Below, one piece after another: positions 2,953-49,383 of a DNA stretch of 49,383 nt (position 1 is the stretch's first letter; each line of letters opens with the position of its first letter). Both the position numbers and the translations under genes were made by a program. The DNA is from a virus, in the IMG/VR virus record IMGVR_UViG_3300001472_005966, positions 3,796-53,178 of that record; one strand, 5' to 3'. The notes under the pieces were generated by a model that had not been told where the DNA came from, searched no databases, and saw only the letters and a program-made list of their open reading frames with translations.

Positions 2953-3825
2953 ATGATAAAATTACGTAACCTTCTTCACGAATTAAACGAGTGTGTGATT
3001 GCGCGCTGCCGTGTTGATGGCAATGTAGTTTTGGCAAAGAACCGCGATAGAATGTATGCTCCAGATCTTGAAGTAGTGCACGAAATTGTGAATGGTATAG
3101 AGATGGTTTATATGCGAGACGTCTTAACCGATTGGAGTGAAGGTCTAAATGAGAAGGGTATTGGTGTAGTAAATGCATCTTTAATGGTTGGTTTTGATGA
3201 AAAAGAGGGAGATTTAGCAAAAGATAAAGCTAAAAAAGGTAAGAATGGTAAGCCTTCTTATGATGGATTAAAAATCAGAACCGCATTACAACAATCTAAA
3301 TTATCACAATCTATGAGATCGGTGATTAATTTTAGAGGTGATGATGAAGATGATGTTGGGGTCAAGGGGCTTACAATTGTATCAAACGCTAAGCATAGCT
3401 ATATTATTGAAATGACTTCACAACATGTTCCTATAATAAAGCGAATAGGTCCTGATGAAGTAGTGACAAGAACTAACCATGGAGTTGAGTATCCTGATAC
3501 TGGTTATACAGGTGGATTAAAAAGAAAATCTTCTTTGTCTAGGCAACAAATAGCTTACGATGCATTGTCGGATATTTCATCGCAAGAGCAGGTATTGGAT
3601 GCTCTATCGAAGCAACATGATAGTGATAAGTGGATGAATCCGTATAGACGAGATAATAGTTTTGGATTTACAACATCTTCACAAGTGATGATGGATCTTA
3701 GTAATCTTAAATTTGAGTTTAGACATGATGCTGGCAACTCCACTTTTAAAGGATTGGTAAATAAATTACCACAAGGATATGAACCAAAAATACAAGTTAC
3801 AATAGAAACTACTACAGATAAATGA
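2953..3825 (+). CDS. Ntn-hydrolase (acyltransferase/choloylglycine hydrolase-like) with N-terminal leader
   Basis: The 290-residue protein has the sequence pattern of cysteine Ntn-hydrolases of the penicillin V acylase/AAT type: Cys14, then DGNVVLAKNRD with Asp32 18 residues later, GIGVVNASL (about 70-77) and TRTNHGV with Asn175. Members hydrolyse or transfer amide-linked acyl groups; the substrate here is unknown. Such enzymes need Cys at the mature N-terminus. Here it is preceded by a 13-residue leader, MIKLRNLLHELNE, whose end (L-N-E) matches the [LI]-x-E cleavage motif of T4 prohead protease gp21. The leader resembles the start of the gene at 4822. The gene heads a late operon and overlaps the next gene by ATGA. 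A Lys-rich loop (about 84-103) is unusual. I infer a head-packaged, injected amidase; an ordinary autoprocessing enzyme is the alternative. Confidence 0.7.
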   Translation: MIKLRNLLHELNECVIARCRVDGNVVLAKNRDRMYAPDLEVVHEIVNGIEMVYMRDVLTDWSEGLNEKGIGVVNASLMVGFDEKEGDLAKDKAKKGKNGKPSYDGLKIRTALQQSKLSQSMRSVINFRGDDEDDVGVKGLTIVSNAKHSYIIEMTSQHVPIIKRIGPDEVVTRTNHGVEYPDTGYTGGLKRKSSLSRQQIAYDALSDISSQEQVLDALSKQHDSDKWMNPYRRDNSFGFTTSSQVMMDLSNLKFEFRHDAGNSTFKGLVNKLPQGYEPKIQVTIETTTDK

Positions 3826-4820
3826 AAGATTTTCTAAGGAATGCAGATTATATTCGTGAGTTAGCAAAAAAACAAAAGTTGCAGGAGGAAGGAGCGTTTA
3901 AAGCTAAAAAGAAACAAGATCAAAGAAGAAGGAAAGAGGCTTTTTTGCGATATCAACAACATCTACAGGCTTACGGTAGTAATACTGGAACAGCTGCAGC
4001 CAGTGGTTTTACAAACACCTACTCTGCTAAATTTGATGGAGATGTAGCGGATAGTACTATAGGGTTTGGTGATAATATGGTAATCTCACCTTCCAGTTCT
4101 TTTAGTATAAGTACATGGGTAAAACATGATTCAAATCCAGGAGAAAGCGGAGTTAGAATTGCTAGTAAAGTAGCTTCAGGTCGAGGTGTAGAATATAAAG
4201 GATTAAGTTTAACTGTAGATAGTTTTAGTGGAGTAAAAGTTTTAATTCAAGGACGGGAGCCCGTCACCAACAATCCTAAGGGATTAACTGTAAGATCTGC
4301 TGTACACAGTGGATCAGACAATGCTGGAGGAGGTAATATTATTCCAAACGCATCACTTGGTTGGTATCATCTGGTAGTAACATATAATGGAAATTTTAGT
4401 AGTTCTGGAATGGATATATATGTAAATGGTATTAGTCGTGTATCACAATCATCAAATGGGACACACGCGGAATCATTTGATACCAGCAACATGACTCCAG
4501 GATCTTCTACCAATGACACAACACCATTCCACATTGGTTCACGTAATGGTGCAAGTGATTTTATGAACGGCAATATAGATGAATTTGTATACTTTACTGG
4601 ATCTTTGGCTCAATCTGATGTAAGTAACTTATATAATAGTGGTGTTCCTACAGATGCTACTAGCATTGATTATAGTAACCAATTTATAGCTATCCAACAT
4701 TATTATAGAATGGGTGATAATGATGGAGGTACTGGAACAACAGTAACTGATCAGGTAGGTAGTGTTAATGGTACACTCACCGGAGAGGGAATAGTGTTTG
4801 AAGAAGATGTACCAGGATAA
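3822..4820 (+). CDS. LamG/concanavalin A-like domain protein, probable virion surface or fibre protein
   Basis: The 332-residue protein has two parts. Residues 1-50 are a strongly charged helix rich in Lys, Arg and Gln (KAKKKQDQRRRKEAF). Residues 65-285 form a LamG/concanavalin A-like jelly roll, recognised by FSISTWVKHD (93 on), GWYHLVVTYNG, MDIYVNG, PFHIGSRNG and the closing strand NIDEFVYFTGSL followed by DVSNLYNSG. A short C-terminal region (YYRMGDND) follows, as in many phage and flavobacterial LamG proteins. Such domains bind carbohydrate or protein ligands, so adhesion to the host surface or decoration of the virion is likely. The N-terminal helix contains I-R-E and L-Q-E sites, which might be cut by a prohead protease, but it does not resemble its neighbours' leaders closely. 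ATG 3822 overlaps the upstream stop. Confidence 0.7.
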   Translation: MKDFLRNADYIRELAKKQKLQEEGAFKAKKKQDQRRRKEAFLRYQQHLQAYGSNTGTAAASGFTNTYSAKFDGDVADSTIGFGDNMVISPSSSFSISTWVKHDSNPGESGVRIASKVASGRGVEYKGLSLTVDSFSGVKVLIQGREPVTNNPKGLTVRSAVHSGSDNAGGGNIIPNASLGWYHLVVTYNGNFSSSGMDIYVNGISRVSQSSNGTHAESFDTSNMTPGSSTNDTTPFHIGSRNGASDFMNGNIDEFVYFTGSLAQSDVSNLYNSGVPTDATSIDYSNQFIAIQHYYRMGDNDGGTGTTVTDQVGSVNGTLTGEGIVFEEDVPG

Positions 4821-4821
4821 C

Positions 4822-5208
4822 ATGATTAAGCTACAACAAATATTAGAATCAGTAAACCAAGCTGAATTAGATGAAGTGGAAGCTTACTTAGATAAGATGT
4901 TTGCTGCTATTGGAATTGATATAGAATTCACAAGACATTTTATGGATCGAGTAAACGATATACGTAATCGTAAATCAATAGAGCCAGAAGAGATTGAGGA
5001 TCTGTTTACAAAGACATATGAGGATCACGGACAGGAGATAAAGAGTTTAGGAGCTAGTGGAGAGGCTGTAATCACTGATATGGAATCTAATATTAACGTA
5101 CCGTTTGTTCTTAGATTCAATCCTAGAACCAAAAAACTGGACTTAATATCTAAAACAGTTATGCGTAAACTTAATTTTAAAACATCGGGTAAAAAGTTGA
5201 AAGTATAA
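4822..5208 (+). CDS. Small conserved-looking protein, RelE/DUF4258-like, with N-terminal leader
   Basis: The best start is ATG 4822, one nt after the upstream stop. The frame can be extended to a TTG at 4798, but 4822 gives a start, MIKLQQILES, that resembles the leader of the Ntn hydrolase at 2953. The 128-residue protein contains FTRHFMDRVNDIRNRKSI, then a helix EPEEIEDLFTKTYEDHG, then strands AVITDMESNINVPFVLRF and LDLISKTVMRKLNFKT. The His-x3-Arg pattern followed by strands ending in a TV-x-R-x-x-NF segment recalls the RelE-superfamily RNase fold (DUF4258/BrnT type). That is a fold-level guess only. The leader contains I-L-E, a possible prohead-protease site. It closes the late operon that starts at 2953. 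Confidence 0.55.
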   Translation: MIKLQQILESVNQAELDEVEAYLDKMFAAIGIDIEFTRHFMDRVNDIRNRKSIEPEEIEDLFTKTYEDHGQEIKSLGASGEAVITDMESNINVPFVLRFNPRTKKLDLISKTVMRKLNFKTSGKKLKV

Positions 5209-5228
5209 TATAATTTTCGTATATTAAG
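5197..5228 (+). promoter_or_regulatory. Host-type promoter before the phosphoribosyltransferase gene
   Basis: TTGA at 5197-5200, a 19-nt spacer, and TATATTAAG at 5220-5228 form a promoter similar to the Bacteroidota -33 (TTTG) and -7 (TAnnTTTG) elements. The -7 element begins 12 nt before ATG 5232. The same arrangement, spacer and distance occur before the primase gene at 39418. Transcription would begin at or very near the start codon, giving a leaderless or near-leaderless message. Confidence 0.5.
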
Positions 5229-5231
5229 TGT

Positions 5232-5738: not shown

Positions 5739-5750
5739 TTATATTCCAAG

Positions 5751-5759: not shown

Positions 5760-5775
5760 ATAAACACGTACATAA

Positions 5776-8380: not shown

Positions 8381-9120
8381 GTTACACAGCAGAAGAATTA
8401 CAAGATAATTATAAAAAGTTTTTGTCTTTTATAGACGAGTACGTCACAGGAGATAGAAAAGAAAAGTTAAAGAAGTTATATCAAGATCATGAGGAGCGTA
8501 TTATGATGATGCCTGCCTCAGGCACAGCTCACTACCACAATTGCTTTATTGGTGGTTATGTGGATCACGTTATACGTGTTATGGAGTGTGCATTGGATGT
8601 AGATAAGCTTTGGAGTAAGCATGGAGCAACAAAAGATTACACTACAGAAGAATTAATCTTTTCTGCAATGAATCATGACTTAGGAAAGATAGGAACAGAA
8701 GAAGCTGAGCAGTATATTCATAATCCGTCTGATTGGCATAGAAAGAATCAAGGAAAGCTGTACACTAACAATCCGGTAAATGCTTTTATGACTGTTCCAG
8801 ATAGAGGATTAAAACTTCTTTACGATAGAGGTATTACTATTACTGACAATGAATGGTTTGGAATTAAATTACATGATGGTATGTATGAAGAATCTAACAA
8901 GCCATATTATGTTAGTTGGAATCCAGACAGCGCCTTACGTACTAATCTTCCTTACGTGTTACATCAAGCGGATGCAATGGCAGCTCGTATTGAATCTAAT
9001 ATGATGAAAGAAGAACCGGTAACTACTTTTCCAGAAAAGAAAACTGCTAAGAAAAAAGGAAGCATCACAGACTCAGATAAAGATAATCTGAAAAATACAT
9101 TCGATAAATTATTCAAATAA
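8377..9120 (+). CDS. HD-domain metal-dependent phosphohydrolase
   Basis: The 247-residue protein shows the HD-superfamily pattern: His64 in GGYVDHVIRV, the HD pair His100-Asp101 in MNHDLGKIG, His166-Asp167 in KLHDGMY, and Asp199 in VLHQADAMAARIE. These residues bind one or two metal ions and hydrolyse phosphate esters, often of nucleotides. The HDLGK form is close to that of cytoplasmic HD nucleotidases and phosphodiesterases. The substrate is not clear; candidates are dNMPs, cyclic or signalling nucleotides. A 55-residue basic C-terminal tail (EKKTAKKKG...) follows the catalytic domain. The gene overlaps the zinc-ribbon gene and precedes the membrane protein and late sigma genes. Confidence 0.75.
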   Translation: MSYTAEELQDNYKKFLSFIDEYVTGDRKEKLKKLYQDHEERIMMMPASGTAHYHNCFIGGYVDHVIRVMECALDVDKLWSKHGATKDYTTEELIFSAMNHDLGKIGTEEAEQYIHNPSDWHRKNQGKLYTNNPVNAFMTVPDRGLKLLYDRGITITDNEWFGIKLHDGMYEESNKPYYVSWNPDSALRTNLPYVLHQADAMAARIESNMMKEEPVTTFPEKKTAKKKGSITDSDKDNLKNTFDKLFK

Positions 9121-9121
9121 T

Positions 9122-9433
9122 ATGTTAGTAGTAGTTATAACACTGTCTGTATTGTTAGCCGTAGCATTATGGCTTCTAATCGTTCAGTTTAAAAAATCAG
9201 AAAAATTAATGGGATTTCTTGAATTGTATGTCAGAATGTTATCTGTCATAGCACTTCGTACTGATAAAGCATACAAGAGAATGCAGGAAATTGATCGTTT
9301 AGGTTCATTTGAAGCTGACGACGAAACTGGATATATATTTCAAGAGATAAAAGCAGCAACCACAGACTTAGATGAGTTTGTTAAAAAATACATAAGCAAT
9401 GATGCAAAAGAAGAAAAGAGCGAGAAAAAGTAA
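9122..9433 (+). CDS. Small membrane protein of unknown function
   Basis: The 103-residue protein has one N-terminal transmembrane helix (about residues 2-22) followed by helical segments with LRTDKAYKRMQEIDRLGSFE and ETGYIFQEIKAATTDLDEFV, and a charged tail. The second half looks conserved and acidic. The C-terminal coding region overlaps the next gene by 35 nt in another frame, which argues for coupled translation. No function is recognised. Confidence 0.6.
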   Translation: MLVVVITLSVLLAVALWLLIVQFKKSEKLMGFLELYVRMLSVIALRTDKAYKRMQEIDRLGSFEADDETGYIFQEIKAATTDLDEFVKKYISNDAKEEKSEKK

Positions 9434-10133
9434 AAAACAATATTTCGGTCCTGAGGTTGATGTGGCTATAATCGAATATAACGCAACAGAGGATACAGAA
9501 GTAAAGAGTAGAATATACGAAAGAGGTATTAGAAAACCAATGGAGAAGTTGGTTGAAAACATCATTCACACCTTCAAGTTTTATTACACCGACAATGTTC
9601 CGTTGCATGAAGTTCAACATGAAGTTGTATCTTTTTTATGTGAAAAGCTAGGTAAATTCAAACCAGAGAAGGGAAGCAAAGCGTTCAGTTATTTCAGCAT
9701 GGTTGCAAAAAATTACTGCATTTTAAAGAATAGAAAAAACTATAAAAAGTTAATCGAAACAAAACGTATTGATTATGACCTCTCCATAGAGATTGCAGAT
9801 TCAACACCTACAGCAGATGAAGAAGGTCCAGATTTAGAAAAGTTTTTTGAAAAGTATTTAGAGTATTGGGATGATAAGGTTGAATTATACTACAAAAAAG
9901 AGCGTGATCAAAGGTTAGCAGAAGCAGTATTGGAATTGTTTAGAAAGAGAGATAGAATTGAAATTTTTAACAAAAAAGCATTGTACGTTTATATTCGCGA
10001 GATGACCAACGCTAACACTCAGCAAATCACCAAAGTTGTAAAAGACATGAAATTGCGTTGGAAGCATATGTATAGTGATTTCTTAGAAAAAGGCTACATC
10101 CCTAAAGAAAAAATATACGAAATTGAAAGGTAG
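9399..10133 (+). CDS. 55: Late-transcription sigma factor (T4 gp55-like)
   Basis: The 244-residue protein starts with a basic segment (KKKRARKSKKQ). It contains a sigma region 2-like stretch: PLHEVQHEVVSFLCEKLGKF, then EKGSKAFSYFSMVAKNYC and ILKNRKNYKK (about residues 67-123). The PEKGSKAF-SYF pattern is what T4-type gp55 proteins show in the segment that binds core RNA polymerase and the late -10 box. A charged central region and a C-terminal helical part (EMTNANTQQITKVVKDMKL) follow. It would direct host RNA polymerase to late promoters; the TATTTATA boxes listed here are candidate targets. The first ATG (9399) is followed directly by a second (9402). Assignment is by pattern, with no search behind it. 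Confidence 0.65.
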   Translation: MMQKKKRARKSKKQYFGPEVDVAIIEYNATEDTEVKSRIYERGIRKPMEKLVENIIHTFKFYYTDNVPLHEVQHEVVSFLCEKLGKFKPEKGSKAFSYFSMVAKNYCILKNRKNYKKLIETKRIDYDLSIEIADSTPTADEEGPDLEKFFEKYLEYWDDKVELYYKKERDQRLAEAVLELFRKRDRIEIFNKKALYVYIREMTNANTQQITKVVKDMKLRWKHMYSDFLEKGYIPKEKIYEIER

Positions 10134-10375
10134 TGTTAATAAACGTATCTCAAGACTATATTCGAGATTTTATTTTAGATGAAATCAAAGCATGGGAAGA
10201 TGTTTGTGGTACACCAAACTTGCACGCATTTGAGTTTGATCCTTTAGAGCCAGACATAGAGGGTAAGTTAACAGAGTTGGGATTCTATGAAAATAGAATA
10301 GCTTGGACAGCTGGTATTCGCATCAAGAAGTTGTATGAGTATTTAGAGGATATTGAAAGTAGAGGAGTTTCGTAA
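10133..10375 (+). CDS. Small hypothetical protein
   Basis: This 80-residue acidic protein uses a GTG start that overlaps the late sigma stop (TAGTG at 10131-10135), so translation is probably coupled. It contains SQDYIRDFILDEIKAWEDVCG and ENRIAWTAGIRIKKLYEYLEDIE, likely two or three helices. No family is recognised. Its position next to the sigma gene would fit a sigma partner, such as the T4 gp33 co-activator, but nothing in the sequence shows this. Confidence 0.5.
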   Translation: MLINVSQDYIRDFILDEIKAWEDVCGTPNLHAFEFDPLEPDIEGKLTELGFYENRIAWTAGIRIKKLYEYLEDIESRGVS

Positions 10376-10389
10376 AACTTACTTTTCAC

Positions 10390-10398
10390 CTATTTATA
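10390..10398 (+). promoter_or_regulatory. Candidate late promoter box heading the baseplate block
   Basis: CTATTTATA within the 15-nt string CCTATTTATATAAAA, which is identical before the genes at 18606 and 28412. The core begins 19 nt before ATG 10410. Confidence 0.65.
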
Positions 10399-10409
10399 TA
10401 AAAAGCACT

Positions 10410-10751
10410 ATGGATAAAGATTCACCACTATTTGATAATAAAAACTTTTCTGATCTTTTAGCAGACATTTACAATAACACTAAAAAGAAAGAGAAGCAAA
10501 TCACTGAGCTGATCAATCAACTCAAACCAATGATTCGTAATATGACTGATGCATCTATGATGGTTCCTTTAGTTAAAGAGTATCTTGAGGTCTCAGTGAA
10601 AAACGATGACAATTTAGTGAAATTGACAGCGATTGTGCAACGATTGCTAGTATCCAGCAATAAGAATACTAACACAGATGATGGCATGTTGTCTGAGGCT
10701 GAAAAGCAACAATTAATGGATGCAGCACAAGATTTACTAGATAAAGGATAG
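10410..10751 (+). CDS. Small structural-block protein of unknown function
   Basis: The frame is open from 10353, but ATG 10410 is the better start because it lies behind the late box and avoids overlap with the upstream gene. The 113-residue protein is helical and charged: NFSDLLADIYNNTKKKEKQ, MMVPLVKEYLEVSVKNDDN, LVKLTAIVQRLL, and a C-terminal helix AEKQQLMDAAQDLL. It is the first gene of the tail/baseplate block and starts a run of closely spaced structural genes. A chaperone or small baseplate subunit is possible; no family is recognised. Confidence 0.6.
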   Translation: MDKDSPLFDNKNFSDLLADIYNNTKKKEKQITELINQLKPMIRNMTDASMMVPLVKEYLEVSVKNDDNLVKLTAIVQRLLVSSNKNTNTDDGMLSEAEKQQLMDAAQDLLDKG

Positions 10752-10754
10752 AAT

Positions 10755-11930
10755 ATGGGATTTTTCAGCGGATTATTTGGCGCTCTTAAAGCATCGCCAG
10801 CACCAGTACCACCTCAACCGTATTTACCATTTAATCGGTCTGGAGTGGGTCATGTGTTGGATGTTATCCTAAATGAAAATCACCCCTCCTATGATCCAGA
10901 TCAAAACAGAATAATAGGTACTGTATTTTATCGAAACGCTTTTGCGTCACCTGGAGGAACTTCTTTTAGTTTCATGGAAGCTTTGTTAGCACGACAAGCA
11001 AATCCGCTCGATCGTAGTAATTTTAAAGTACCGTTACCGGGAGAGCAGGTTTTAATCTTTGATGCTAAATCAAGCAAACTTGATGGCCCTGACGTATTCA
11101 TGACTACAGAAACCTTCTACGGTCCAGTAGTTGGTACTAGTGCTAACATCACATCAAACTCTGCACCATTTATTGGAATTGATCCTGATAGGATTAATCC
11201 ATTCCTTCCAGGACAGAGAACAGTAGGAGAGTTGTCTCGCAGATTTGATAAAAAAATTAAAAGTTTAGGCGCATTTAAAAACAACCAAAACAAATCTATT
11301 GTACATAAGCAAGTAGCATTGAATGAGGGTGATTTTGTATTGCAAGGTCGGTTTGGAGGAAGTATCAGATTTGCAGGAACACCCGACCCTGCAAACCTTA
11401 CTAAGGTAATAAAAGAGCAACAATTTGCTCAAACAGAAGCTGGAGTGCCTGGAGATCCTATTATCCTTATGCGAGTAGATAATGATAAAAACACAGCGTC
11501 TGAGAGTGAAAACAAATCATACCAATCAGAAGATGTTAATGTTGATGCAACTTCAATGTACTTAACTTCTACACAACAAATACCAATAAAATTAGCCTTA
11601 CCTGATGGAAATGATTTAGCTCATCCATTAGCTTCTTGGGCTAATACATATGGTATTGAGCTTTCCACTGATGTCAAAAAAACTGCTAACAAAGCTAAGG
11701 ATGGAGAGGATGCTAGGAGTGGAGCAAATAAAACAGCACCGAAGGAGGGAAACAAGGGCGAGGATGTTAAAGTAAACGAAGAGCCACCCTCAGAACAACC
11801 ATCACCAGACGATACAACTTCTCAAGACGAAACACCAATTTCAGATGGAGAATCAAATGACCCAGCTAGCGAAGGATACAACGGATTCTATACACAAGGT
11901 CAAACTGGTTTAAGTGGAGCACAAGATTAA
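10755..11930 (+). CDS. Baseplate hub/spike protein, gp5-like OB-domain protein
   Basis: In the 391-residue protein, residues 25-135 resemble the OB-fold domain of T4-type gp5 hub proteins: VLDVILNENHP, RIIGTVFYRN, NPLDRSNFKVPLPGEQVLIF and a second strand set FYGPVVG. Residues about 190-245 contain LQGRFGGSIRFAGTP and GDPIILMRVD, a pattern seen in gp5-like spike proteins. Residues 306-391 are a low-complexity tail rich in Lys, Glu, Asp, Ser and Pro, likely disordered. No lysozyme domain is seen, unlike T4 gp5; the peptidase in the gene at 14030 may take that role. The assignment rests on pattern and on its place in the baseplate block. Confidence 0.6.
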   Translation: MGFFSGLFGALKASPAPVPPQPYLPFNRSGVGHVLDVILNENHPSYDPDQNRIIGTVFYRNAFASPGGTSFSFMEALLARQANPLDRSNFKVPLPGEQVLIFDAKSSKLDGPDVFMTTETFYGPVVGTSANITSNSAPFIGIDPDRINPFLPGQRTVGELSRRFDKKIKSLGAFKNNQNKSIVHKQVALNEGDFVLQGRFGGSIRFAGTPDPANLTKVIKEQQFAQTEAGVPGDPIILMRVDNDKNTASESENKSYQSEDVNVDATSMYLTSTQQIPIKLALPDGNDLAHPLASWANTYGIELSTDVKKTANKAKDGEDARSGANKTAPKEGNKGEDVKVNEEPPSEQPSPDDTTSQDETPISDGESNDPASEGYNGFYTQGQTGLSGAQD

Positions 11931-11932
11931 TT

Positions 11933-13069
11933 ATGGGAGCAATACCAAAAGATACAATTGATAAGTTTAACGGACTCATAACTGAGAAGGGTGATGAGCT
12001 TGCGCGTGCTCATGTGATTCGTATTGTAGCTGGAACTAATTCTACCTTATGGGCAGATTATTTAAAAGTGTTAAGAGCGGGACCTGCAACTGCTAAGGAT
12101 GTTCTAAACACAAGAATCCAAGAAATTATTGCAAAGAATAAAGCAAGGTACCAAACAGAAGATATAAACGGAATTGATCCAGATACAATGTGGAAAATTG
12201 TTGATGGAGTTTGGTGGCCTAGTATTAAGGAAGTTGATGTGGCATTAGTAGATCATCCAACAGCAAAGGAGCTGACCTCTATGAGAGGAATTGCTATGAA
12301 AACTGTGATGAAGATGCACAGCAGTGGTCGTGGAAAACCTTATGCTAGAAAATTAGACTTTGCTTTTGCACCTTTAGAAGCAGGATACTTTAGTGACCTT
12401 ACACAAGCGTATACTGAAATAATGATGTGGACCAAGTCTTACACACGATACACGCCTAAGACAGCGTTTGATAATAAGTCAGGAACATCTAGTAATGCAG
12501 GAGATGTAGATCAATCCAAAACTAAAGCATTTCTGCAAGAAGTGTTTACAACCGAACAAGCAGCAAAGGTTTGGTGGATTAGCCAATACGGAAACAATCC
12601 CACACTAGGACGTCCAATACTGACAGGTGCTAATCTAAATTCATATTTGGGTTATTTTAATATGATGATTGGTTGGAATGGAGGTGATACTGCTTTAATT
12701 AAAAGAGGTATCCAAGCAGAAGAAAAAAAATCGTTTAGTATCTTTCCATTTGATTCAAATAAGTTTACATTTAATGATAGTCCTACATCTCATGATGTAA
12801 AGAGTATAGGATGTTGCGTAGCAGCTATACAAGCACAATACAAATGGATACAAGCACAAAAAACAAACGAAAACAAAGATTTTTATCAGGGGTGGTTTGA
12901 TAGATTTTTCAAGAATCCAAAATCGCTTGTTAATATGCTAATCATAATAAATGAGCGCGTTCACAATAATGGAGCAAATGAATTTCAATACTCACCCAAA
13001 TGTGGAGCTAGAATGAAAGCAATGGCAGCTGCGTTAGCTGCTCAATTCAAACTCGAAATAGGAGACTAA
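11933..13069 (+). CDS. Baseplate-block protein of unknown function
   Basis: The 378-residue protein lies between the gp5-like and spike-like genes and is probably part of the baseplate hub or tail tip. It is mostly helical, with many Trp and Tyr residues (WWPSIKEVD, IMMWTKSYTRYTP, VWWISQYGNNP). A central Gly/Asn-rich part (GRPILTGANLNSYLGYFNMM) and a Cys pair (IGCCVAAIQ) are visible. The C-terminus ends in a helical Ala-rich segment (RMKAMAAALAAQFKL). Its TAATG junction with the next gene suggests coupled translation. I do not recognise a family. Confidence 0.55.
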   Translation: MGAIPKDTIDKFNGLITEKGDELARAHVIRIVAGTNSTLWADYLKVLRAGPATAKDVLNTRIQEIIAKNKARYQTEDINGIDPDTMWKIVDGVWWPSIKEVDVALVDHPTAKELTSMRGIAMKTVMKMHSSGRGKPYARKLDFAFAPLEAGYFSDLTQAYTEIMMWTKSYTRYTPKTAFDNKSGTSSNAGDVDQSKTKAFLQEVFTTEQAAKVWWISQYGNNPTLGRPILTGANLNSYLGYFNMMIGWNGGDTALIKRGIQAEEKKSFSIFPFDSNKFTFNDSPTSHDVKSIGCCVAAIQAQYKWIQAQKTNENKDFYQGWFDRFFKNPKSLVNMLIIINERVHNNGANEFQYSPKCGARMKAMAAALAAQFKLEIGD

Positions 13070-14025
13070 TGGCAGTATACACTTACGATCAGATAAAGCA
13101 GATTGTCGCTCAAAATGGAGGACTGCCTCCTGCCATAGCAGCTACCGTGACAGCACCACAACCTGGTCAACAATTCACCGGAAAGACGACTATTGATATA
13201 GGTAAGTATCAAGACGAAGTAATGGCTCTTTCCTTTGCTGAAGAATCTGACACAACCTTCGATCTAAAAGTCAAAGGAACAGCGCAAGATGTAGAAAAGC
13301 TTCTTGGAATAAACGAACGAAGCTTTAATACATACGCTCCTGGAGCAGTTGGCGGTAGCATATTTTTAAACAGTAGTCGTGTTGTTATAAACGCTAAAGA
13401 CGATTACGCAATGATGTTTGGAAAAAAAGGAGTAGCAATAGCATCACCAGAAGCAGTTAATGTTGATTCTGGAAAAGCTATAACATTATTTGGTCATGAG
13501 CAGGTGTTTATAGGTGTTCCTAATCGAGGCAAGGAAATAACCGAAGACTTGAGCAAAGCAAGAGATCCAGGAAAGTCGGTAGGAGATCCAACACCAGACG
13601 AATTATACGAGCCTTTAGCCTTAGGCATTAAACTTATTAATTTTCTAGAAGACTTTATTGTAACCCTAGAAAACTCAGAAATAGCTGGACCATTAGGTAA
13701 TGGAGTATTTCAACCATCATCTTTGGCAGAGTTTGAGTTATTAAAAACTAGATTACCTGAAATCATAAGTGAATATGGATATATAGACGGTTTAACTCAT
13801 GGAACAGTTGATGCAGAGAGATTGAAGACTGTAAAAGCAGCCAAAGAAAAAGCTAAAGATTATGTTCCACCAAGAACTTTAACTGGAGTAACTACGGGTA
13901 CAGTTGGACCTGGAGGACCTGGACAAGCAGGACCACCACCAAATCCAGTAACTAACCCAATGGCAGCAGTTCCAGGATTTTACGATACACCTGCATCACC
14001 ACTGTATGGAGATGAATTAAGTTAA
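13069..14025 (+). CDS. Baseplate spike-associated protein with repeated beta strands
   Basis: Residues about 100-165 of this 318-residue protein contain consecutive short strands with regular spacing: GGSIFLNSSRVVINAKDDYA, MMFGKKGVAIASPEAVNVDS and GKAITLFGHEQVFIGVPNRG. This resembles the beta-prism or beta-helix shafts of gp5/VgrG-type spikes. The first 60 residues and a helical region (about 185-255) flank it. The last 50 residues are Gly/Pro/Thr-rich (GPGGPGQAGPPPNPV), a likely flexible linker or tip. Its place just after the gp5-like gene suggests that the spike function is divided over two polypeptides. The role is inferred. Confidence 0.5.
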   Translation: MAVYTYDQIKQIVAQNGGLPPAIAATVTAPQPGQQFTGKTTIDIGKYQDEVMALSFAEESDTTFDLKVKGTAQDVEKLLGINERSFNTYAPGAVGGSIFLNSSRVVINAKDDYAMMFGKKGVAIASPEAVNVDSGKAITLFGHEQVFIGVPNRGKEITEDLSKARDPGKSVGDPTPDELYEPLALGIKLINFLEDFIVTLENSEIAGPLGNGVFQPSSLAEFELLKTRLPEIISEYGYIDGLTHGTVDAERLKTVKAAKEKAKDYVPPRTLTGVTTGTVGPGGPGQAGPPPNPVTNPMAAVPGFYDTPASPLYGDELS

Positions 14026-14029
14026 TATT

Positions 14030-39417: not shown

Positions 39418-40341
39418 ATGAATGTATCACAAACTGAGGTTGTGATGAAGGTACTACATGGACATTTAGGAAGATCTACGCCACATAAAAATGGAGAAAA
39501 GAGCTTTCACTGTCCATTCTGTAATCATCACAAAAAGAAGCTGCAAGTTAATGTCTTGACGCAAAAATGGCATTGTTGGGTATGCAATGCGCGTGGTCAG
39601 ACTGTGAACTCACTTCTAAAGAAAAGCAAAGCTCCTGAGTATGTTTTCCCTAAAATACGAGAAGTCTATGGTGATGTAAAGGTTACAACACAAAAGAAGA
39701 AATCCAACAAACTATACTCTTTGCCAGAGCAATACAAACCACTACACAACCAAAGGAACACTCCACACTATAGAAACGCTATACATTATGCAGTACATAA
39801 GAGAGGGCTTTCTCCTATTGATATAGTCAAGTATGAGATAGGATATTGTGAAGATGGCCCTTATGGAGGCATGTTAGTAGTGCCTAGCTTTGATGAAGAT
39901 GGATTCCTAAACTACTATGCTGGTAGAAGCTTCTATGATACAGACCATAAACACAAGAATCCTCCAGTATCAAAGGATGTTATTGGATTTGGTAGCCATA
40001 TAAACTGGAAAGAGCCTATTGTAATAGTGGAGGGTGCATTCGATGCAATATCAACAAAGCGTAACGTGATTCCATTGTTTGGTAAAAAGATACTTCCAAC
40101 ACTAAGATCACGTATTTTAAGTGAGCGACCTCCTAAGCTTTACCTAGCCTTGGATCCAGACGCATATAAGGATAGTCTGGAAGAGATAGAGTACTTCATC
40201 AACAATGGCATAGAGGTGTACTACACAGACTTGAAAGATAAAGATCCAAATGAAACTGGACACAAAGGCATGCTAAGCATGTTAGAGCAAGCTCAACAGC
40301 TTAGCTTTTTTGATTTGATAAAATATAAAATGAACATATGA
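39418..40341 (+). CDS. DNA primase (zinc ribbon plus Toprim; T4 gp61-like)
   Basis: The 307-residue protein makes RNA primers for lagging-strand synthesis. An N-terminal CHC2-type zinc ribbon is seen: FHCPFCNHH (C32, C35) and WHCWVCNARG (C53, C56). The Toprim core has the acidic residue Glu205 in IVIVEGAFDAI and the DxD pair Asp246/Asp248 in YLALDPDAYKD. The middle segment (RGLSPIDIVKYEIGYCEDGP, MLVVPSFDEDGFLNYYAGRS) is the usual linker and N-terminal part of the catalytic domain in phage primases. No helicase domain is fused, so a separate helicase is expected elsewhere in the genome. The gene has a host-type promoter, fitting early or middle expression, and overlaps the next gene by ATGA. 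Confidence 0.88.
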   Translation: MNVSQTEVVMKVLHGHLGRSTPHKNGEKSFHCPFCNHHKKKLQVNVLTQKWHCWVCNARGQTVNSLLKKSKAPEYVFPKIREVYGDVKVTTQKKKSNKLYSLPEQYKPLHNQRNTPHYRNAIHYAVHKRGLSPIDIVKYEIGYCEDGPYGGMLVVPSFDEDGFLNYYAGRSFYDTDHKHKNPPVSKDVIGFGSHINWKEPIVIVEGAFDAISTKRNVIPLFGKKILPTLRSRILSERPPKLYLALDPDAYKDSLEEIEYFINNGIEVYYTDLKDKDPNETGHKGMLSMLEQAQQLSFFDLIKYKMNI

Positions 40342-43300
40342 GCCAAGGAATTACACTACCCAACAATGTTGATTACATCTTTCACATCGCTGATGTACAC
40401 ATTAGGAACTGGAAACGGCACAAAGAGTTTAAGCAGGTGTTTGACAGAATGTTTGAGGAATTAGACAAGTGTTCTCCTAACACCATCGTAACAGTTGGAG
40501 GTGATATTGTGCATGCTAAAACAGAGATGAGTCCAGAGCTTATCAGCATGGTATCCTACCTATTCAAAAAATTGGCAGATAGAAGACCTACATTTGTGAT
40601 CACAGGAAACCACGATGCAAACCTAAATAATCCACACAGATTAGATGCATTAACTCCAATCGTTCAAGGACTGAAACATCGAAACCTTTGGTACCTAAGA
40701 GACTCAGGATTGTATGATATATACACACCAGATCAGAAAATAGGACTCAGTGTATTTTCTTTATTAGGTGAAACTGACAAATATATCACATACGATAAGA
40801 TAGATAATCCAGACCAATACGATTTACTAATGGCTTTGTATCATGGCACAGTTGCCAATAGTAAAGTGGATAGTGGTATGAATATTGAACATGGATTGAG
40901 CTGGGATACGTTTGCTGGTTTTGATGTAGCACCACTAGGAGATATACATAAACGTCAAACATTATCTACAGCAAATCCGTTGATGTTCTATCCAGGCTCA
41001 ACTGTACAACAAAACTTTGGAGAAGCGTATGAAGGACATGGATATGGTATCATTGATGTACGAGACCGAAAAGATATCAAATGTGAGTTTCACGATCTAC
41101 CTAACGAATACGGGTATTATACGTTAGAGATTACTGATGGTGTATTGCCAGACAATCTACCTATCACAAAGCACACAAGACTACGCATCAAGACAATGAA
41201 AACAGATGCGGCTCAGATGAAGCGTGTTCTTGCAACGATACGTAAGAAGTACAAAAACCGAGATGCAATAGTTATCAAACTCGACAAAGGTGGCCGGAAC
41301 GGTGATGAACATCTAGGTACACAACTAGACCAAGGAGACGTACGTAACATACAATACCAAAACCAACTACTAACAGAATACCTAACCGATGAAGGTGTAG
41401 ATGAAGACTCGATTGCCAAAGTTTTAGAAATCAATAAGAAGCTTAATGGTGAGTTGCAGCAGCCTGAGGTAGCTCGCAGTGTAATCTGGAAACCTAAGAA
41501 GTTCGAGTTTAGCAACATGTTCAGCTATGGAGAGGACAACACCATTGACTTCAGCACTAAGATGGGTACTTGTGGTATATTTGCACCTAACCATGCCGGC
41601 AAGTCTGCCATATTAGACGCTCTATGCTTCTGCCTCTTCGATCACTCGTTCAGAGCTAGTAAAGCTGACCAAGTACTTAATCGCAAGAAAGAATCATTCG
41701 AGTGTACCTTCAACTTTGAGCTCGAAGGATTGGACTATTTCATTCACAAAAAAGCCTTCAAGTACCGTAGTGGTGCGTTAAAGGGTAGATTGCGTGTGGA
41801 GATTGACTTTTGGTACATCAACGAGGATGGAAACAAGGTGTCACTGAATGGTGAGATGAGACGTGACACTGGTAAGATCATACAATCCTATGTAGGTACG
41901 TTTGATGACTTTATCCTAACTGCATTATCACTGCAACAGAACAACTCCAACTTTATTGACAAGACTCAGAGCGAAAGAAAGGATCTGCTAGCCAACTTCT
42001 TAGATGTTACTATATTTGATCAACTCCATGACCTTGCCAATAGAAGCAATAGAAATGCATCAATTATACTAGAAGAGTACCAAAAGCAAGACTTTGAAAC
42101 TAAACTAGGTGATGCAGAAAAGTCTTTAGATGAATACACTATAAAGCATGACGATGCTATAGCGGTGCATAAAAAAGAGAAAGCTATACTTGATGATCAG
42201 ATCGATAAAATGTTAGTGTTATCTGAGCAATTGGAGCCGTGTGAAGAAGATAGTATAGATATTTCTGATGTATCAGAATCACTTGAAGAATACGAACAAG
42301 AATTGACATCTTTGCAAGAAGACAAAAAAGTATCGACAAAGAAGTGGGAGGAGTCTAAGAAGAGATTAACTGGATTAGAGTATGATAAGGAGCGTGCATT
42401 GAACAGCTTTGATCAGGATCTATACACTACCCACAAAGCAAAGGTACTAGAAAAGATTGAGCTAGATACGGAGTTGGGAGAGTTAAAGATTACAATCAAA
42501 AACAAGTTGTCAAAACTTGAAAAACTTAATAAACATGAGTATGATCCGAACTGCAAGCACTGCGTGTCAAATGTGTTTGTACAAGATGCAATGAAGACGA
42601 AACTAGAGCTTGAGGAAGATAAAACAACAGTAGCTGACTTTTTACAAAAGCGTATGCGAATCGTTGATTTTATCGAAAACAATAAAGAAATACAAGCACA
42701 AGCGGACTACATAAGAGACATTGCAACTGACTATAATAGCGCACGAGCTGATAAAGGTGATGCTGAGTCTGAGTATGAACGTCTTAATAAAGACATAGCA
42801 GCATGCGAAGTCAATATTGCAGAAACCGAATCGCAAATCAAACAATACAACAAGGCTGTAAAAGTCATAGAACGTAACAATAAAACGAATGACAAGTTAA
42901 GTAAGTTGAACATAGAAAAAAATAAACAAACTATAGTCGTACAGAAAACTAACAAGTCTGTACGTGATTTCTATGGTAAAAAGTGTGTAGCTGAGGAGAC
43001 AATTGAAGAGAGTACAAAAACAATCCAACACATGACTCAGTTAGTAGAAGATCAAGCAATATATGATATCTACTGCAAAGCTATGTATAAGGATGGCATA
43101 CCATTTCAGCTTATATCAAAGGCTGTTCCATTCATAGAGCAACACGCCAACACTATACTAAATCAGATAATTGATTTTGAGATTGCATTAGAAACAGATG
43201 GCAAGAATATAAATGGATTCATATGTTATGAAGACGAAAAGTGGCCGTTAGAGTTGAGTTCTGGGATGGAAAAATTCTTATCTTCTATAGCTTTGCGTAT

Positions 43301-43529
43301 AGCATTAATTAAGATCACAAACCTACCGAAGCCTGATTTTATTGCTATTGATGAGGGATTAGGTGTTTTAGATAGCACCAATCTAAACTCAATGCACACA
43401 CTATTTACTAATATGAAGGACACTTTCAGGTTTAGTTTAGTTATCTCACACATTGATGTAGTAAGAGATATGGTTGACAATATTATAACAATAGACAGAA
43501 AAAACGAATTGTCGTATATAAACTGTTAA
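40338..43529 (+). CDS. 47/46: Fused gp47-gp46 (SbcD/Mre11-SbcC/Rad50) recombination nuclease-ATPase
   Basis: This 1063-residue chain joins two proteins that are normally separate. Residues 1-380 are an Mre11/SbcD-type phosphoesterase: IADVHIRN (Asp19, His21), VGGDIVHAK, ITGNHDANL, ALYHGTV and PLGDIHKRQ bind the metal ions. From about 390 on is the Rad50/SbcC-type ATPase: Walker A APNHAGKS (416-423), a Gln-containing LSLQQNN segment, a long coiled coil, the zinc hook CKHC (739-742), signature ELSSGMEKF (972-980) and Walker B FIAIDEGLG (about 1001-1009). The complex resects DNA ends for recombination-dependent replication. T4 gp47 and gp46 have 339 and 560 residues. The first Walker A residue is Ala instead of Gly. 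It follows primase by ATGA. Confidence 0.9.
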   Translation: MSQGITLPNNVDYIFHIADVHIRNWKRHKEFKQVFDRMFEELDKCSPNTIVTVGGDIVHAKTEMSPELISMVSYLFKKLADRRPTFVITGNHDANLNNPHRLDALTPIVQGLKHRNLWYLRDSGLYDIYTPDQKIGLSVFSLLGETDKYITYDKIDNPDQYDLLMALYHGTVANSKVDSGMNIEHGLSWDTFAGFDVAPLGDIHKRQTLSTANPLMFYPGSTVQQNFGEAYEGHGYGIIDVRDRKDIKCEFHDLPNEYGYYTLEITDGVLPDNLPITKHTRLRIKTMKTDAAQMKRVLATIRKKYKNRDAIVIKLDKGGRNGDEHLGTQLDQGDVRNIQYQNQLLTEYLTDEGVDEDSIAKVLEINKKLNGELQQPEVARSVIWKPKKFEFSNMFSYGEDNTIDFSTKMGTCGIFAPNHAGKSAILDALCFCLFDHSFRASKADQVLNRKKESFECTFNFELEGLDYFIHKKAFKYRSGALKGRLRVEIDFWYINEDGNKVSLNGEMRRDTGKIIQSYVGTFDDFILTALSLQQNNSNFIDKTQSERKDLLANFLDVTIFDQLHDLANRSNRNASIILEEYQKQDFETKLGDAEKSLDEYTIKHDDAIAVHKKEKAILDDQIDKMLVLSEQLEPCEEDSIDISDVSESLEEYEQELTSLQEDKKVSTKKWEESKKRLTGLEYDKERALNSFDQDLYTTHKAKVLEKIELDTELGELKITIKNKLSKLEKLNKHEYDPNCKHCVSNVFVQDAMKTKLELEEDKTTVADFLQKRMRIVDFIENNKEIQAQADYIRDIATDYNSARADKGDAESEYERLNKDIAACEVNIAETESQIKQYNKAVKVIERNNKTNDKLSKLNIEKNKQTIVVQKTNKSVRDFYGKKCVAEETIEESTKTIQHMTQLVEDQAIYDIYCKAMYKDGIPFQLISKAVPFIEQHANTILNQIIDFEIALETDGKNINGFICYEDEKWPLELSSGMEKFLSSIALRIALIKITNLPKPDFIAIDEGLGVLDSTNLNSMHTLFTNMKDTFRFSLVISHIDVVRDMVDNIITIDRKNELSYINC

Positions 43530-45687: not shown

Positions 45688-47154
45688 ATGAGTTTTACAG
45701 ATTTAAAAAATAAAAGAGTGACATATAGTCATGCATTTGATTTTTATTATAAGTGGTGTCCTACTGGCAGCAACAAAATAGTTGGAGGATGGCCTAATAA
45801 CATGGCAAATGTAAACGAAGATTGGGATGGACAAAATCGAAGTATATCAAATGCTTATTACAACAACGCCATTGCCACCTCGCTCGACTTTGACACTCTC
45901 ACAGCTCTTACACGAGAACCTGCAATTATATCTGGTAGTGCAGGAGCATTGCCGTGGGGATCTCCTGCAGCAGATTATTTATGGAATTGTCTTGTACCAA
46001 CTCAATCTGGATTTAGTATTGACTCAACAGCCAGAGGTGGTGGTAGTTTTAACAATACTATGATTTTTACTTTTACCTATAACAGTGCTAGTTTTTTTAG
46101 AGGTGACTTACGAGGTGATTATGGCTTTGTAAAATATCCAATAACTTCAAGCTGGAAAGCTGTAGAGCCTTTAATGACAGCTTCAAATATGATATATAAA
46201 ACATTTGCTAGTAGTGTTGGAGGTGGAACCGTAGAATATCCAGCTACTATTAACAAACCAACACCCTCGGACGTTTACGCTCAACCATCAGCGTTTAGTG
46301 CAGGTATTCCTAAATACACTGAAGTAGGAGGTGTAACTCTAGGAGGAGGTGTTCCATTAGCAAACGGAACTAATCCAGGCATGATAACATTTGGAGATGC
46401 TTCAACTGGATCGTTTGATGGAAGGTTCTACGATCTTGCAGGAGGTATTGGAATTTCAAGACAAGATGTGAGTGCATCCTTAGCTGGATATGCTTCACAA
46501 TCCCATCTACAAACGTCTGCTGTTCAAATAAACCTGTCAAACGAATTAAAACGACGACGATTATTTTTCCCCACTGTAACAGCAACGAGAGATGATTCGA
46601 TTACTGCTGATCCGTCCTCAGGAGTGAATTGGTTTTGTAGCGACATGTATCCACTTCCAAATCCAATTCAAAGTACTGGAGGTATTTTTAATACAAATGG
46701 AGGAATTTTTAATGTTAAGTTCAATCTAAAAAGAAACCTTAATATAGATATGTATCCTGACACAGGCGCAGGTAGTGAATTGTTAATTTACATTTTTAAT
46801 ATTCAACCAAATGTTGGTCTTATAAATGAGCGAGTAGCAGGAACAGCGGGATTTTATCCACCTGATAATAATATTGTGAGAATAAAAAACGTTAATCCAG
46901 CAATGTCTTTTATAAACCCTGCGACAGGATTCCAATTAGAATCTTTCAATATCAACGTTGTGCAGTATGGATTAGATGCTCAAATAGTGTTTGAAGCTAG
47001 TGGTAGTTTAGATTCTGATTCTTACTTTGGATGTATTATTGATGATATTGAATTTTGCCAAGTAGGTGTAGCAACTGATCCATCCTTACTAGCACCGACA
47101 ACGATTGGAGGTAATATTACAAATGAAGTGGCATTTCCAGCAGACAGATCATGA
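45688..47154 (+). CDS. Structural protein of unknown type, probable fibre or tip
   Basis: The 488-residue protein starts 12 nt after the preceding structural gene. It is rich in Gly, Asn, Ser and aromatic residues and beta-rich, for example SHAFDFYYKWCPTGSNKIVG, GGVTLGGGVPLANGTNPGMI and NGGIFNVKFNLKRNLNIDMY. The N-terminal YSHAFDFYYKW segment and the Gly-rich middle (GGGSFNNTMIFTFTY) suggest a compact receptor-binding or capsid-surface domain. The ending (FGCIIDDIEFCQVGVATDPS) contains two Cys close together. No enzyme motif or known family is recognised. It overlaps the next gene by ATGA. Confidence 0.5.
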   Translation: MSFTDLKNKRVTYSHAFDFYYKWCPTGSNKIVGGWPNNMANVNEDWDGQNRSISNAYYNNAIATSLDFDTLTALTREPAIISGSAGALPWGSPAADYLWNCLVPTQSGFSIDSTARGGGSFNNTMIFTFTYNSASFFRGDLRGDYGFVKYPITSSWKAVEPLMTASNMIYKTFASSVGGGTVEYPATINKPTPSDVYAQPSAFSAGIPKYTEVGGVTLGGGVPLANGTNPGMITFGDASTGSFDGRFYDLAGGIGISRQDVSASLAGYASQSHLQTSAVQINLSNELKRRRLFFPTVTATRDDSITADPSSGVNWFCSDMYPLPNPIQSTGGIFNTNGGIFNVKFNLKRNLNIDMYPDTGAGSELLIYIFNIQPNVGLINERVAGTAGFYPPDNNIVRIKNVNPAMSFINPATGFQLESFNINVVQYGLDAQIVFEASGSLDSDSYFGCIIDDIEFCQVGVATDPSLLAPTTIGGNITNEVAFPADRS

Positions 47155-47690
47155 TAAATAATAATAAAGTAAGAAACACAACAACACCTTTCAAACCAAT
47201 TGAAGGATTAGCAACTGGAGAAACTTTGGGTAAGATTCGCTTAAAGAATATTTATACAAGTTGGAATGGAGAGAGTGTGTCTGACATAAAAGCAAAGCAT
47301 AACACTAATCCCTATCTAGTAAGAATAGGCACACCTAACACAGATGCTAAACTTCAATCCGACAACATATACTTTATTTCACACTACCTCGCTTACAATC
47401 CAATCACACAAGATCTTGAAAACAGAGATATAATATCCAGACGAGTTATGGAAAAATTCTATGTCGGACAATCTACAATAGAGGGTGAGTATGATCAGTG
47501 TAAGTTAATTGTAAACGGAAGTGCAGTCCTAGAAGACCTTTACTTATATAAGAATGAAAATTTAAAACACAAGTCATTATCTAGTGTGATTACAAAACTG
47601 CTAGATAGAGTTGATCAGCTCACAAAAGAAGTTGCACAATTAAAGGCTAAAGTGAAAACGCAGCCTATTTATACAAAAGACTCTTTATAA
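47151..47690 (+). CDS. Structural protein with C-terminal coiled coil
   Basis: The 179-residue protein has a beta-rich part with IRLKNIYTSWNGESVSDIKA, FISHYLAYNPITQDLENRDI and YDQCKLIVNGSAVLEDLYLY. A C-terminal helix (SLSSVITKLLDRVDQLTKEV and AQLKAKVK; about 138-168) has clean heptads with Leu and Val. The order of a small beta domain followed by a trimerising coiled coil is typical of phage fibre or neck whisker ends. The late box for the next gene (47665) lies inside its last codons. Function is inferred from shape and neighbours only. Confidence 0.5.
   Translation: MINNNKVRNTTTPFKPIEGLATGETLGKIRLKNIYTSWNGESVSDIKAKHNTNPYLVRIGTPNTDAKLQSDNIYFISHYLAYNPITQDLENRDIISRRVMEKFYVGQSTIEGEYDQCKLIVNGSAVLEDLYLYKNENLKHKSLSSVITKLLDRVDQLTKEVAQLKAKVKTQPIYTKDSL
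47665..47673 (+). promoter_or_regulatory. Candidate late promoter box inside the preceding gene
   Basis: CCTATTTATACAAAA differs from the best consensus by one base (C for T). The core begins 25 nt before ATG 47691 and lies within the last codons of the upstream gene, yet still matches. Confidence 0.5.
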
Positions 47691-49383
47691 ATGAACGATT
47701 TATCAAAATTTCTAGTTGATAGTATTCTCAACGAAGTTGAAGAGGGAATTACAGTAATGTTGCCTGGTGGATTTAAACCTCCACACGAAGGACACTTAAT
47801 GCTTGCAAAGGGTTATGAAGATATGCCACAAGTAAAAGAAGTTGTTATTCTAATAGGACCAAAAGAACGTGATGGTATTACTCTTGAAGATAGCGAAAAA
47901 ATATGGGAAAAACTACTAGCTGGAACCAAAAAGATTAGAGTAGAGAGATCAAGATACCCAAGTCCACTACTCACTGCATACAAATATATTGAAGAGAAAG
48001 CTCAATCAGGAGAATCGTATGCTTTAGGGTCAAGCAGCAAAGGTAGTGATTACGATCGTATTCGTGGCTTTGTAGATCAACACCAAAATGATGGAAAATA
48101 TTATAAAGATGGTGTGAGTGTTGTTGAGTTGCCACTTGATAAATCAAAACCATTATTCTACAAAAATAGAACTGATGATCAAAACGGTAAGCCAACCTCA
48201 GCGTCGCAGCTACGATCTGACTTAGCAGCTCAGGATTTTGAAAATTTTAAAACAAATTATCCAAGCATAAAATCTGATCAACAGCTTAGAGACATATTCG
48301 ATCTATTATCAAAAAAAAAGATCAAGGAGGACCTCTCCCAATCTACTTTGGATGAGATAGAAATTCCTGCTGTCTTACGTAAACAATTTGAACAATTAAA
48401 AAGTAAGTTTGGAGCTTTTATTGACAAACTAAAGGTTGAAAAGCAAGAAACTAAAGACGCATTTATAAAGCTATATGACGCGGTAAAGAAAGGTCAAAAG
48501 TTACCAAATCACGAAAGAAAAGAGATTGGCGATCAAATGAAAGATGTTTTGAAATTAGCTGGATTTACAGCAGCATCTGTGTTACCTGGAGGAGTAATCT
48601 ACCTACTCTTAGCTCGTCTGCCAATACTAAAAAAAACACTAACACCCTCAGCATTTCTAGATATAGAGACTCCAGCAGAATTTATGGCTGTCAGTGAGGG
48701 TCGCAATCTTTTAAAAGAGGGAGGAGCAGCTGGACACATGGCTCATCCGTATGAAGATATGGATATGACTTTTGATGATATCGAAGATATGATTGATGCA
48801 GCTTTAACCGGAAAAGTGGAGTATGCTCAAGAGAAGTTAGATGGACAGAATCTTATGGTAACATATAAAGACGGCAAAGTGCTTTCAGCAAGAAACAAAG
48901 GACAACTGAAGAATGCAGCTGAAAAAGCAATGACTAAGAATGATATGGAAAAGTCAATGCAGCACTTACCAGATAATGTTCGTAATGCATTTCTTGATGC
49001 AATGCAAGATATGACGGATGCGATATCCAAACTTAATCCAACCGAAAAAGAAGAGTTTTTTGGAAACGGTACCAAGTTTATAAACATGGAACTCTTACAT
49101 CCTTCCAGTGAAAATGTAGCTGCTTACGGAGTAACTCAACTAAGAATGCACAACGTGCAGGAGTATGATGAGAATGGAAACGTCGTAGGAAGTGATAGTG
49201 ACGCACCTACTAAAATACAACAAGCCTTAGATCGAGTAGAAGCTTCTAAACAAGACACGTATGAAATAAGAGCTACTGACTTAGTGGATCTTAAACAAAC
49301 TAAAGATTACGAAAAACAAAAGCAAGAACTACTTAAAGATCTTGGTAGTGTTAGAAGCAAGTATCAGCTAACTAAGGAAAGCA
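47691..49383 (+). CDS. Nucleotidyltransferase plus membrane-like segment plus RNA/DNA-ligase-like protein (3' truncated)
   Basis: The frame is open from ATG 47691 to the right edge (564 codons so far). Three parts are visible. Residues 20-200 form an HxGH-type nucleotidyltransferase: VMLPGGFKPPHEGHLMLAKG with His32 and His35, as in cytidylyl- and NMN adenylyltransferases. Residues about 270-325 contain RKEIGDQMKDVLKLAGFTAA, then SVLPGGVIYLLLARLPI and PSAF, a hydrophobic hairpin that resembles LETM1-type segments. From about 360 there is a ligase-like catalytic region: EKLDGQNL (Lys382 in a KxDG motif I), SARNKG and NMELLHPSSEN (about 465), as in covalent nucleotidyltransferases. The N-terminus, MNDLSKFLVDSILNE, is a leader ending in L-N-E. 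Ligase activity and head packaging are inferred. Confidence 0.7.
   Translation, partial: MNDLSKFLVDSILNEVEEGITVMLPGGFKPPHEGHLMLAKGYEDMPQVKEVVILIGPKERDGITLEDSEKIWEKLLAGTKKIRVERSRYPSPLLTAYKYIEEKAQSGESYALGSSSKGSDYDRIRGFVDQHQNDGKYYKDGVSVVELPLDKSKPLFYKNRTDDQNGKPTSASQLRSDLAAQDFENFKTNYPSIKSDQQLRDIFDLLSKKKIKEDLSQSTLDEIEIPAVLRKQFEQLKSKFGAFIDKLKVEKQETKDAFIKLYDAVKKGQKLPNHERKEIGDQMKDVLKLAGFTAASVLPGGVIYLLLARLPILKKTLTPSAFLDIETPAEFMAVSEGRNLLKEGGAAGHMAHPYEDMDMTFDDIEDMIDAALTGKVEYAQEKLDGQNLMVTYKDGKVLSARNKGQLKNAAEKAMTKNDMEKSMQHLPDNVRNAFLDAMQDMTDAISKLNPTEKEEFFGNGTKFINMELLHPSSENVAAYGVTQLRMHNVQEYDENGNVVGSDSDAPTKIQQALDRVEASKQDTYEIRATDLVDLKQTKDYEKQKQELLKDLGSVRSKYQLTKES

Follow-up and report, generated by a model that had tools for sequence, protein, structure and literature searches.

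The window analysed here, a stretch of 49,383 nucleotides that covers bases 3796–53178 of a 53,178-base IMG/VR virus record (IMGVR_UViG_3300001472_005966), comes from a marine T4-like phage and contains just three genes whose products begin with a short leader resembling the capsid-targeting sequence of T4. They encode a predicted N-terminal nucleophile (Ntn) hydrolase at 2953, a small protein at 4822, and a nucleotidyltransferase-ligase protein at 47691. A first-pass annotation had picked out these open reading frames (ORFs) as candidates for head-packaged, injected enzymes; all three ORFs and their leaders lie exactly where it had placed them, and the likeness to the T4 sequence holds in length, in amphipathic form, and in the terminal [LI]-x-E. 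As the source for the rest of the genome, we used G001 (IMGVR_UViG_3300025168_000034; 165,609 bases), a ~99% identical relative whose counterparts of the three proteins match at 99–100%.

The Ntn ORF encodes 290 residues and starts MIKLRNLLHE-LNE/CVIAR (a slash marks a predicted cleavage site throughout), the ORF at 4822 encodes 128 residues and starts MIKLQQILE/SVNQ, and the ORF at 47691, which is open at the window end and gives a full protein of 757 residues in G001, starts MNDLSKFLVDSILNE/VEEG. The late-type box, CTATTTAT(A) on the sense strand, is present at 2932 ahead of the Ntn gene and at 47665 ahead of the nucleotidyltransferase gene, and the 4822 gene, which has no box of its own, follows directly after the preceding gene, in agreement with the earlier claim that all three follow late boxes or lie in a late operon. 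In G001, CTATTTATA occurs 25 times in sense and once in antisense orientation, and the box core TATTTATA reads as the T4-style TATAAATA box on the opposite strand. These boxes predict late expression of the Ntn and nucleotidyltransferase genes. The coordinates of the features are collected in Table 1.

Table 1. Leaders, predicted sites, domains, and late-type boxes in the window
Feature	Position	Strand	Remarks
Late-type promoter box CTATTTATTA	2932..2941	+	21 bases ahead of the Ntn start
Putative zymogen, AAT/penicillin-acylase-like Ntn hydrolase	2953..3825	+	AlphaFold2, Foldseek, Pfam AAT in relatives
Ntn leader MIKLRNLLHELNE, tandem sites LHE/LNE/	2953..2991	+	L014 and L015 lose the first site and keep the second
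Codon of Cys14, predicted N-terminal nucleophile	2992..2994	+	Abuts [LI]-x-E site; Cys in 33/33 cluster representatives
Leader MIKLQQILE	4822..4848	+	G007 homologue has MIKLKNLLLE
Small protein, 'RelE/DUF4258-like' in the first-pass annotation	4822..5208	+	No Pfam family; phrog_23027 C-terminal domain E 7e-17
Late-type promoter box CTATTTATA	47665..47673	+	Ahead of the nucleotidyltransferase-ligase gene
Leader MNDLSKFLVDSILNE	47691..47735	+	Similar leaders ending ILNE or ILKE in L001, L002, L004
Cytidylyltransferase/NMNAT-like domain and linker, ends in LLKE	47736..48719	+	phrog_395 E 1e-4; Lak-phage homologues E 1e-19
Ligase-like domain (GGAAGHM...EKLDGQN) from internal site LLKE/GGAAGHM	48720..49382	+	Continues past the window end

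Predicted cleavage sites before the Ntn cysteine and the ligase-like domain

A sequence search for solved structural relatives of the Ntn protein gave no real match, and a fold comparison was therefore needed. In the AlphaFold2 model (pLDDT 86.9), residues 1–12 score below 50 and strand 1 begins at residue 15; Foldseek matched the model to isopenicillin N acyltransferase 2x1c (E 8e-10, TM 0.61), with further matches to CV2077, bile salt hydrolases, penicillin V acylase, NAAA, and acid ceramidase. As modelled, the protein has an Ntn fold with a conserved Cys nucleophile, and an N-acyl amide would be the natural guess for its substrate. It shares the fold and the invariant Cys at the start of strand 1 with the AAT/choloylglycine-hydrolase-type Ntn hydrolases (2x1c, bile salt hydrolase, penicillin V acylase); unlike them, it scores below the Pfam cut-off (20.4 bits against 23.2 for AAT, PF03417), and its predicted activation is by a viral maturation protease, not by autoproteolysis or Met removal. 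The same profile matches 14 of 30 members of the Ntn family at E ≤ 0.01, the best at 4e-7. A scan of cellular genome contigs found no cellular homologues, and a cellular contrast was therefore not available.

In the AAT-type Ntn superfamily, the Cys has to stand free at the N-terminus. Among 62 distinct homologues from 95 loci, including one from the cultured Chryseobacterium phage MA9V-1 with the site FLNE/C, [LIV]-x-E abuts the invariant Cys in 60, and the other two start Met-Cys; from this pattern, [LIV]-x-E/C or M/C in 62/62, the Cys is predicted to be a free N-terminus. Leader length ranges from 7 to 74 residues, and the leaders show no other likeness. When the homologues are reduced to 33 representatives of 80% clusters, [LI]-x-E precedes the Cys in 31 and Met in two; in the representatives with a leader, position −1 is Glu and position −3 is Leu or Ile in 31/31, and position −2 and the flanking positions have an entropy of 2.5 to 3.6 bits. 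Two routes to a free Cys, Met removal or prohead-protease cleavage, are the simplest reading of these alignments, and we infer that the Ntn hydrolase would be a zymogen and that the prohead protease would unmask its nucleophile.

A second site of this kind appears inside the nucleotidyltransferase-ligase protein. [LI]-x-E precedes the GGAxGHM ligase-like domain in 69 of 77 distinct loci, with Leu or Ile at −3 in 77/77, and the domain begins 50 to 997 residues into the ORFs, behind upstream parts that are often unrelated; with the upstream sequences clustered below 50% identity, the site is kept in 39/46. The domain has EKLDGQN (KxDG motif), and the RNA_ligase profile was matched only by homologue L111 (E 0.012, below cut-off). 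The same two-domain design is found in Microcystis phage Mel-JY01, with the site IIAE/GGLGGHM. The inter-domain linker of the window protein, at about residues 225–340, includes a hydrophobic stretch (LAGFTAASVLPGGVIYLLLARLP).

An alternative to cleavage by the prohead protease is that the leader is a real capsid tag, but the Ntn enzyme matures by Glu-Cys autoproteolysis, [LI]-x-E serving there for tag removal only. The best structural matches lend themselves to this view, as isopenicillin N acyltransferase, NAAA, acid ceramidase, and penicillin V acylase self-cleave before the nucleophile. However, Leu/Ile at P3 and Glu at P1 are invariant in leaders that differ so much in length and have no other conserved position, this P3/P1 pattern is also found before an unrelated ligase-like domain without such chemistry, and the two Met-Cys homologues have no leader at all. 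Autoproteolysis is therefore unlikely in our view, and we prefer unmasking of the Cys by the prohead protease.

Occurrence of the leader and its gene cassette

The loose form of the motif, [LI]-x-E with its last residue at 8–16, is present in 36 of 187 G001 N-termini against 18.7 in shuffles and was dropped as evidence in its own right, being too weak. The strict full leader, defined by a regular expression composed after the cassette described below was seen, is found in 12 of the 187 N-termini and at 0 of 809 internal Met positions, with 0.05 expected from shuffles. The independent control is a scan of the IMG/VR collection, in which the leader DNA pattern matches at least 120 contigs and an equally degenerate scrambled pattern matches none. 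A leader ORF is present on at least 119 contigs and, among the matches listed, two or more such ORFs are present on 51 contigs and three or more on 24. The full leader is far more frequent than chance would give. Judged by eye, the ORFs behind these leaders include ART-like, HAD, Nudix, exonuclease, P-loop, and kinase-like proteins.

The main cluster lies outside the window, at G001 8609–14438, where nine consecutive leader genes form a cassette with the leader form MIKLKDILxE (MIKLAEILNE, MIKLKDILNE, MMKLKNILLE, MIKLKDILFE twice, MIKLKDILYE, MIKLNNILLE, MKLKGIVKDIVLE, and MKLKDILKE); G001 has further leader genes besides these. The cassette cargo includes a HAD phosphatase related to polynucleotide kinase 3′-phosphatase, a weak HD/YfbR match in another protein, and weak ART and GNAT matches, and in the relative G002 the cassette is smaller with some genes exchanged. 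Leader codons differ between most cassette genes, which have no common upstream DNA, and it is therefore the peptide that is conserved. With many unrelated enzymes carrying it and with turnover as a cassette, the leader appears to be a portable tag. This cassette, the [LI]-x-E abutting the predicted catalytic Cys, and the second site in the nucleotidyltransferase-ligase all go beyond what the first-pass annotation had described. A lineage-specific leader spelling common to different cargo (MKNLIRxIL) was looked for in Ntn-bearing jumbo contigs and was found only in the Ntn gene and at one other site.

The leaders could also be a docking helix for a late baseplate or lysis apparatus, with [LI]-x-E incidental to the amphipathic helix. 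In the window, the Ntn gene adjoins endolysin and holin-like genes, and a coiled-coil-like protein of the baseplate region at 18606 (MKAIDFAKLLKE) fits the regular expression. In other phages, however, the Ntn gene follows the major capsid gene, either immediately or at a short distance (L193, L163), or lies within a leader cassette (L175, L163), and a pure helix model leaves the invariant Glu abutting Cys or GGAAGHM unexplained, which makes this explanation very improbable. Less probable still is that the common 5′ ends are recent DNA copies, made by gene conversion or recombination at start codons and kept for translation: the G001 cassette genes starting at 11215, 11637, and 12208 do share the codons AAG CTT AAA GAC ATA TTA, but most leaders differ at synonymous sites, and the peptide is found with degenerate codons on those 119 or more contigs.

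The protein at 18606 (MKAIDFAKLLKEIIRKEVRTVIRQEL), apparently a long charged helix encoded among baseplate genes, was set aside as a decoy of the regular expression. In the cultured Flavobacterium phage immuto (L138, NC_055915), a run of hypothetical genes between the tail and terminase genes has leaders including MKKSQLRQIIKE and NFDLKKFLVENKLT, which may be another spelling. In phage C48C1 (L444, OQ984149), the annotated start of the cytidyltransferase lies downstream of the in-frame leader KNFSQYLLE, so that leaders can go missing through start-codon mis-annotation.

Prohead protease and leader-bearing virion proteins

A gp21-like protease, which the first-pass annotation had named as something to look for elsewhere in the genome and whose absence from the complete genome would have refuted its proposal, was found in G001, where Pfam PF03420 (Peptidase_S77, the T4 gp21 family) matches at 101673–102077 (E 6e-27), ~10 kb downstream of the nucleotidyltransferase gene. 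The protein keeps the GELDHP and GISSRG motifs, which we take to carry the His and Ser of the S77 family. By eye and by homology, the gene order in G001 is nucleotidyltransferase-ligase, small late genes, terminase, portal, protease, core, scaffold, and major capsid protein. PF03420 was not found in the window's own 53-kb record, because this fragment ends before the head genes, and it was found in 7/7 leader-bearing contigs of at least 115 kb. As a discriminator, the presence of the protease was judged weak and rejected: the gene is common to most T4-like phages, and its absence cannot be shown from fragments. The G001 major capsid protein has a propeptide site, LLKE/GSATTAG, at residue 55, and two core-region proteins are rich in [LI]-x-E sites (9 where 2.8 are expected, and 12 where 4.4 are expected).

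Work on the capsid-targeting sequence of T4 has covered a handful of small proteins. In T4, gp21 cleaves behind L/I-X-E, and head targeting needs no more than the first 10 residues of IPIII (PMC9026906); as read from the T4 genes, IPII and IPIII both begin MKTYQEFIAE. The tag itself is this known device of T4, with an N-terminal sequence of ~10 residues ending in [LI]-x-E, an S77 protease, and late genes in both cases. Unlike IPII and IPIII, the cargo here consists of large enzymes of many families, nine of them in one cassette, and two families have sites that are predicted to do more than remove the tag.

Others have found proteins with such leaders in virions of a related phage. According to Table 3 of the report on Synechococcus phage S-CREM2 (PMC10665884), its virion proteome includes a SAM hydrolase, a kinase, a cytidylyltransferase, and a small protein, which begin MKDFDSFLEE/, VKRFDAFLTE/, MKNFSSFLTE/, and MKDLHSFLTE/, respectively. 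These are the only T4-style leaders found in the S-CREM2 genome, and all four are in the proteome as tabulated. They make up 4/28 of the virion genes that are non-structural or unknown, compared with 0/146 of the undetected genes, the latter set from our own ORF calling (Fisher p = 6e-4); the pattern was set knowing T4 and S-CREM2, and the p-value is therefore indicative. In S-SCSM1, the virion NMNAT begins MKSFLQFLKE (virion proteome in PMC9602691). By analogy with the four S-CREM2 proteins, the leader-bearing proteins of the window may be present in virions as well. S-CREM2 and S-SCSM1 virions have cytidylyltransferase/NMNAT, kinase, and SAM hydrolase, starting MKxFxxFLxE or nearly. The two phages differ from ours in leader spelling, and the available parts of the two reports describe no link between leader and packaging and no Ntn zymogen. 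The polyvalent or head-packaged effectors of Iyer, Aravind, and co-workers (ART, Nudix, Macro; PMC9503650) are likewise carried in virions and overlap in enzyme classes; they are recognised from their gene neighbourhood and from domain fusions (MuF, portal), and the available part of that source names no common leader.

Proposed mechanism and points against it

The leader, the sites, their conservation, and the protease gene are there in the sequences themselves; docking, cleavage, and injection in the phage studied, as well as activation of the Ntn enzyme, are what we infer from them. We consider it probable that the leader is a T4-type capsid-targeting sequence, with gp21-type trimming, packaging, injection, activation of the Ntn zymogen, and release of the ligase. 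Late in infection, the leader proteins would be made as precursors, which the ~10-residue amphipathic leader would dock on the prohead core. During head maturation, the gp21-type (S77) protease would cut after [LI]-x-E, and the trimmed proteins would remain with the DNA and enter the next host. In the Ntn hydrolase, the cut would fall directly before the catalytic Cys and create a free N-terminal nucleophile, so that the enzyme would be a zymogen activated inside the prohead, and a second cut in the nucleotidyltransferase-ligase would free the ligase-like domain.

With somewhat less confidence, we further suggest that the T4-like prohead protease is also an activating enzyme, which would unmask the Ntn nucleophile and free the domains of packaged polyproteins. 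The effectors would then lack activity at their place of synthesis and gain it only once the head has matured, and a portable leader would serve a large, fast-changing cargo pool across aquatic T4-like phages. If the rule holds here, injected effectors could be read via the leader straight from genome or metagenome sequence, and cyanophage virion enzymes that were inseparable from contamination would be explained. An Ntn hydrolase activated by capsid maturation would, if true, be a viral zymogen timed by particle assembly, harmless in the producing cell and active upon delivery. In the literature covered, mostly outside subscription journals, we met neither a capsid-protease-activated Ntn hydrolase nor this leader described as a general tag.

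Several points weigh against this mechanism. Maturation in the known relatives of the Ntn fold proceeds through autoproteolysis or loss of the Met, and a protease is therefore not strictly needed. One Met-Cys Ntn form (L214) lies among baseplate-like genes, the other (L216, of L215/L216) beside SSB and UvsX genes; because the former is among baseplate genes, late location alone is no predictor of the site. Eight of the 77 ligase loci lack the Glu, with LLM/GG in seven and LQC/GG in one. The 4822 leader is present in near relatives and in G007, and distant homologues either have no leader or are fused to other domains, as judged from a family scan whose pattern missed 17 of the loci scanned. 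Finally, we found no virion proteomics for the phage studied or for any phage with the exact leader, and carry-over could not be excluded by the S-CREM2 authors for their CsCl preparation (PMC10665884) and was also left possible by the S-SCSM1 authors (PMC9602691).

The LLM/GG loci are L379, L405, L412, L414, L421, L422, and L429, and the protease there may have shifted its specificity. The 4822 protein is the weakest of the three cases. Its RelE/DUF4258 label and possible RNase function, as first proposed, found no support: the protein has no match to a Pfam family, its best matches being at chance level, and an RNase fold is likewise without support.

Two further observations concern other genes. 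At 40338–43529 of the window, an SbcD-type metallophosphoesterase and an SbcC-type SMC ATPase are apparently fused in one ORF of 1063 residues, and at G001 46873–48781 (L088), there is a phage-encoded GroEL-/GroES-like pair, a judgement made by eye only.

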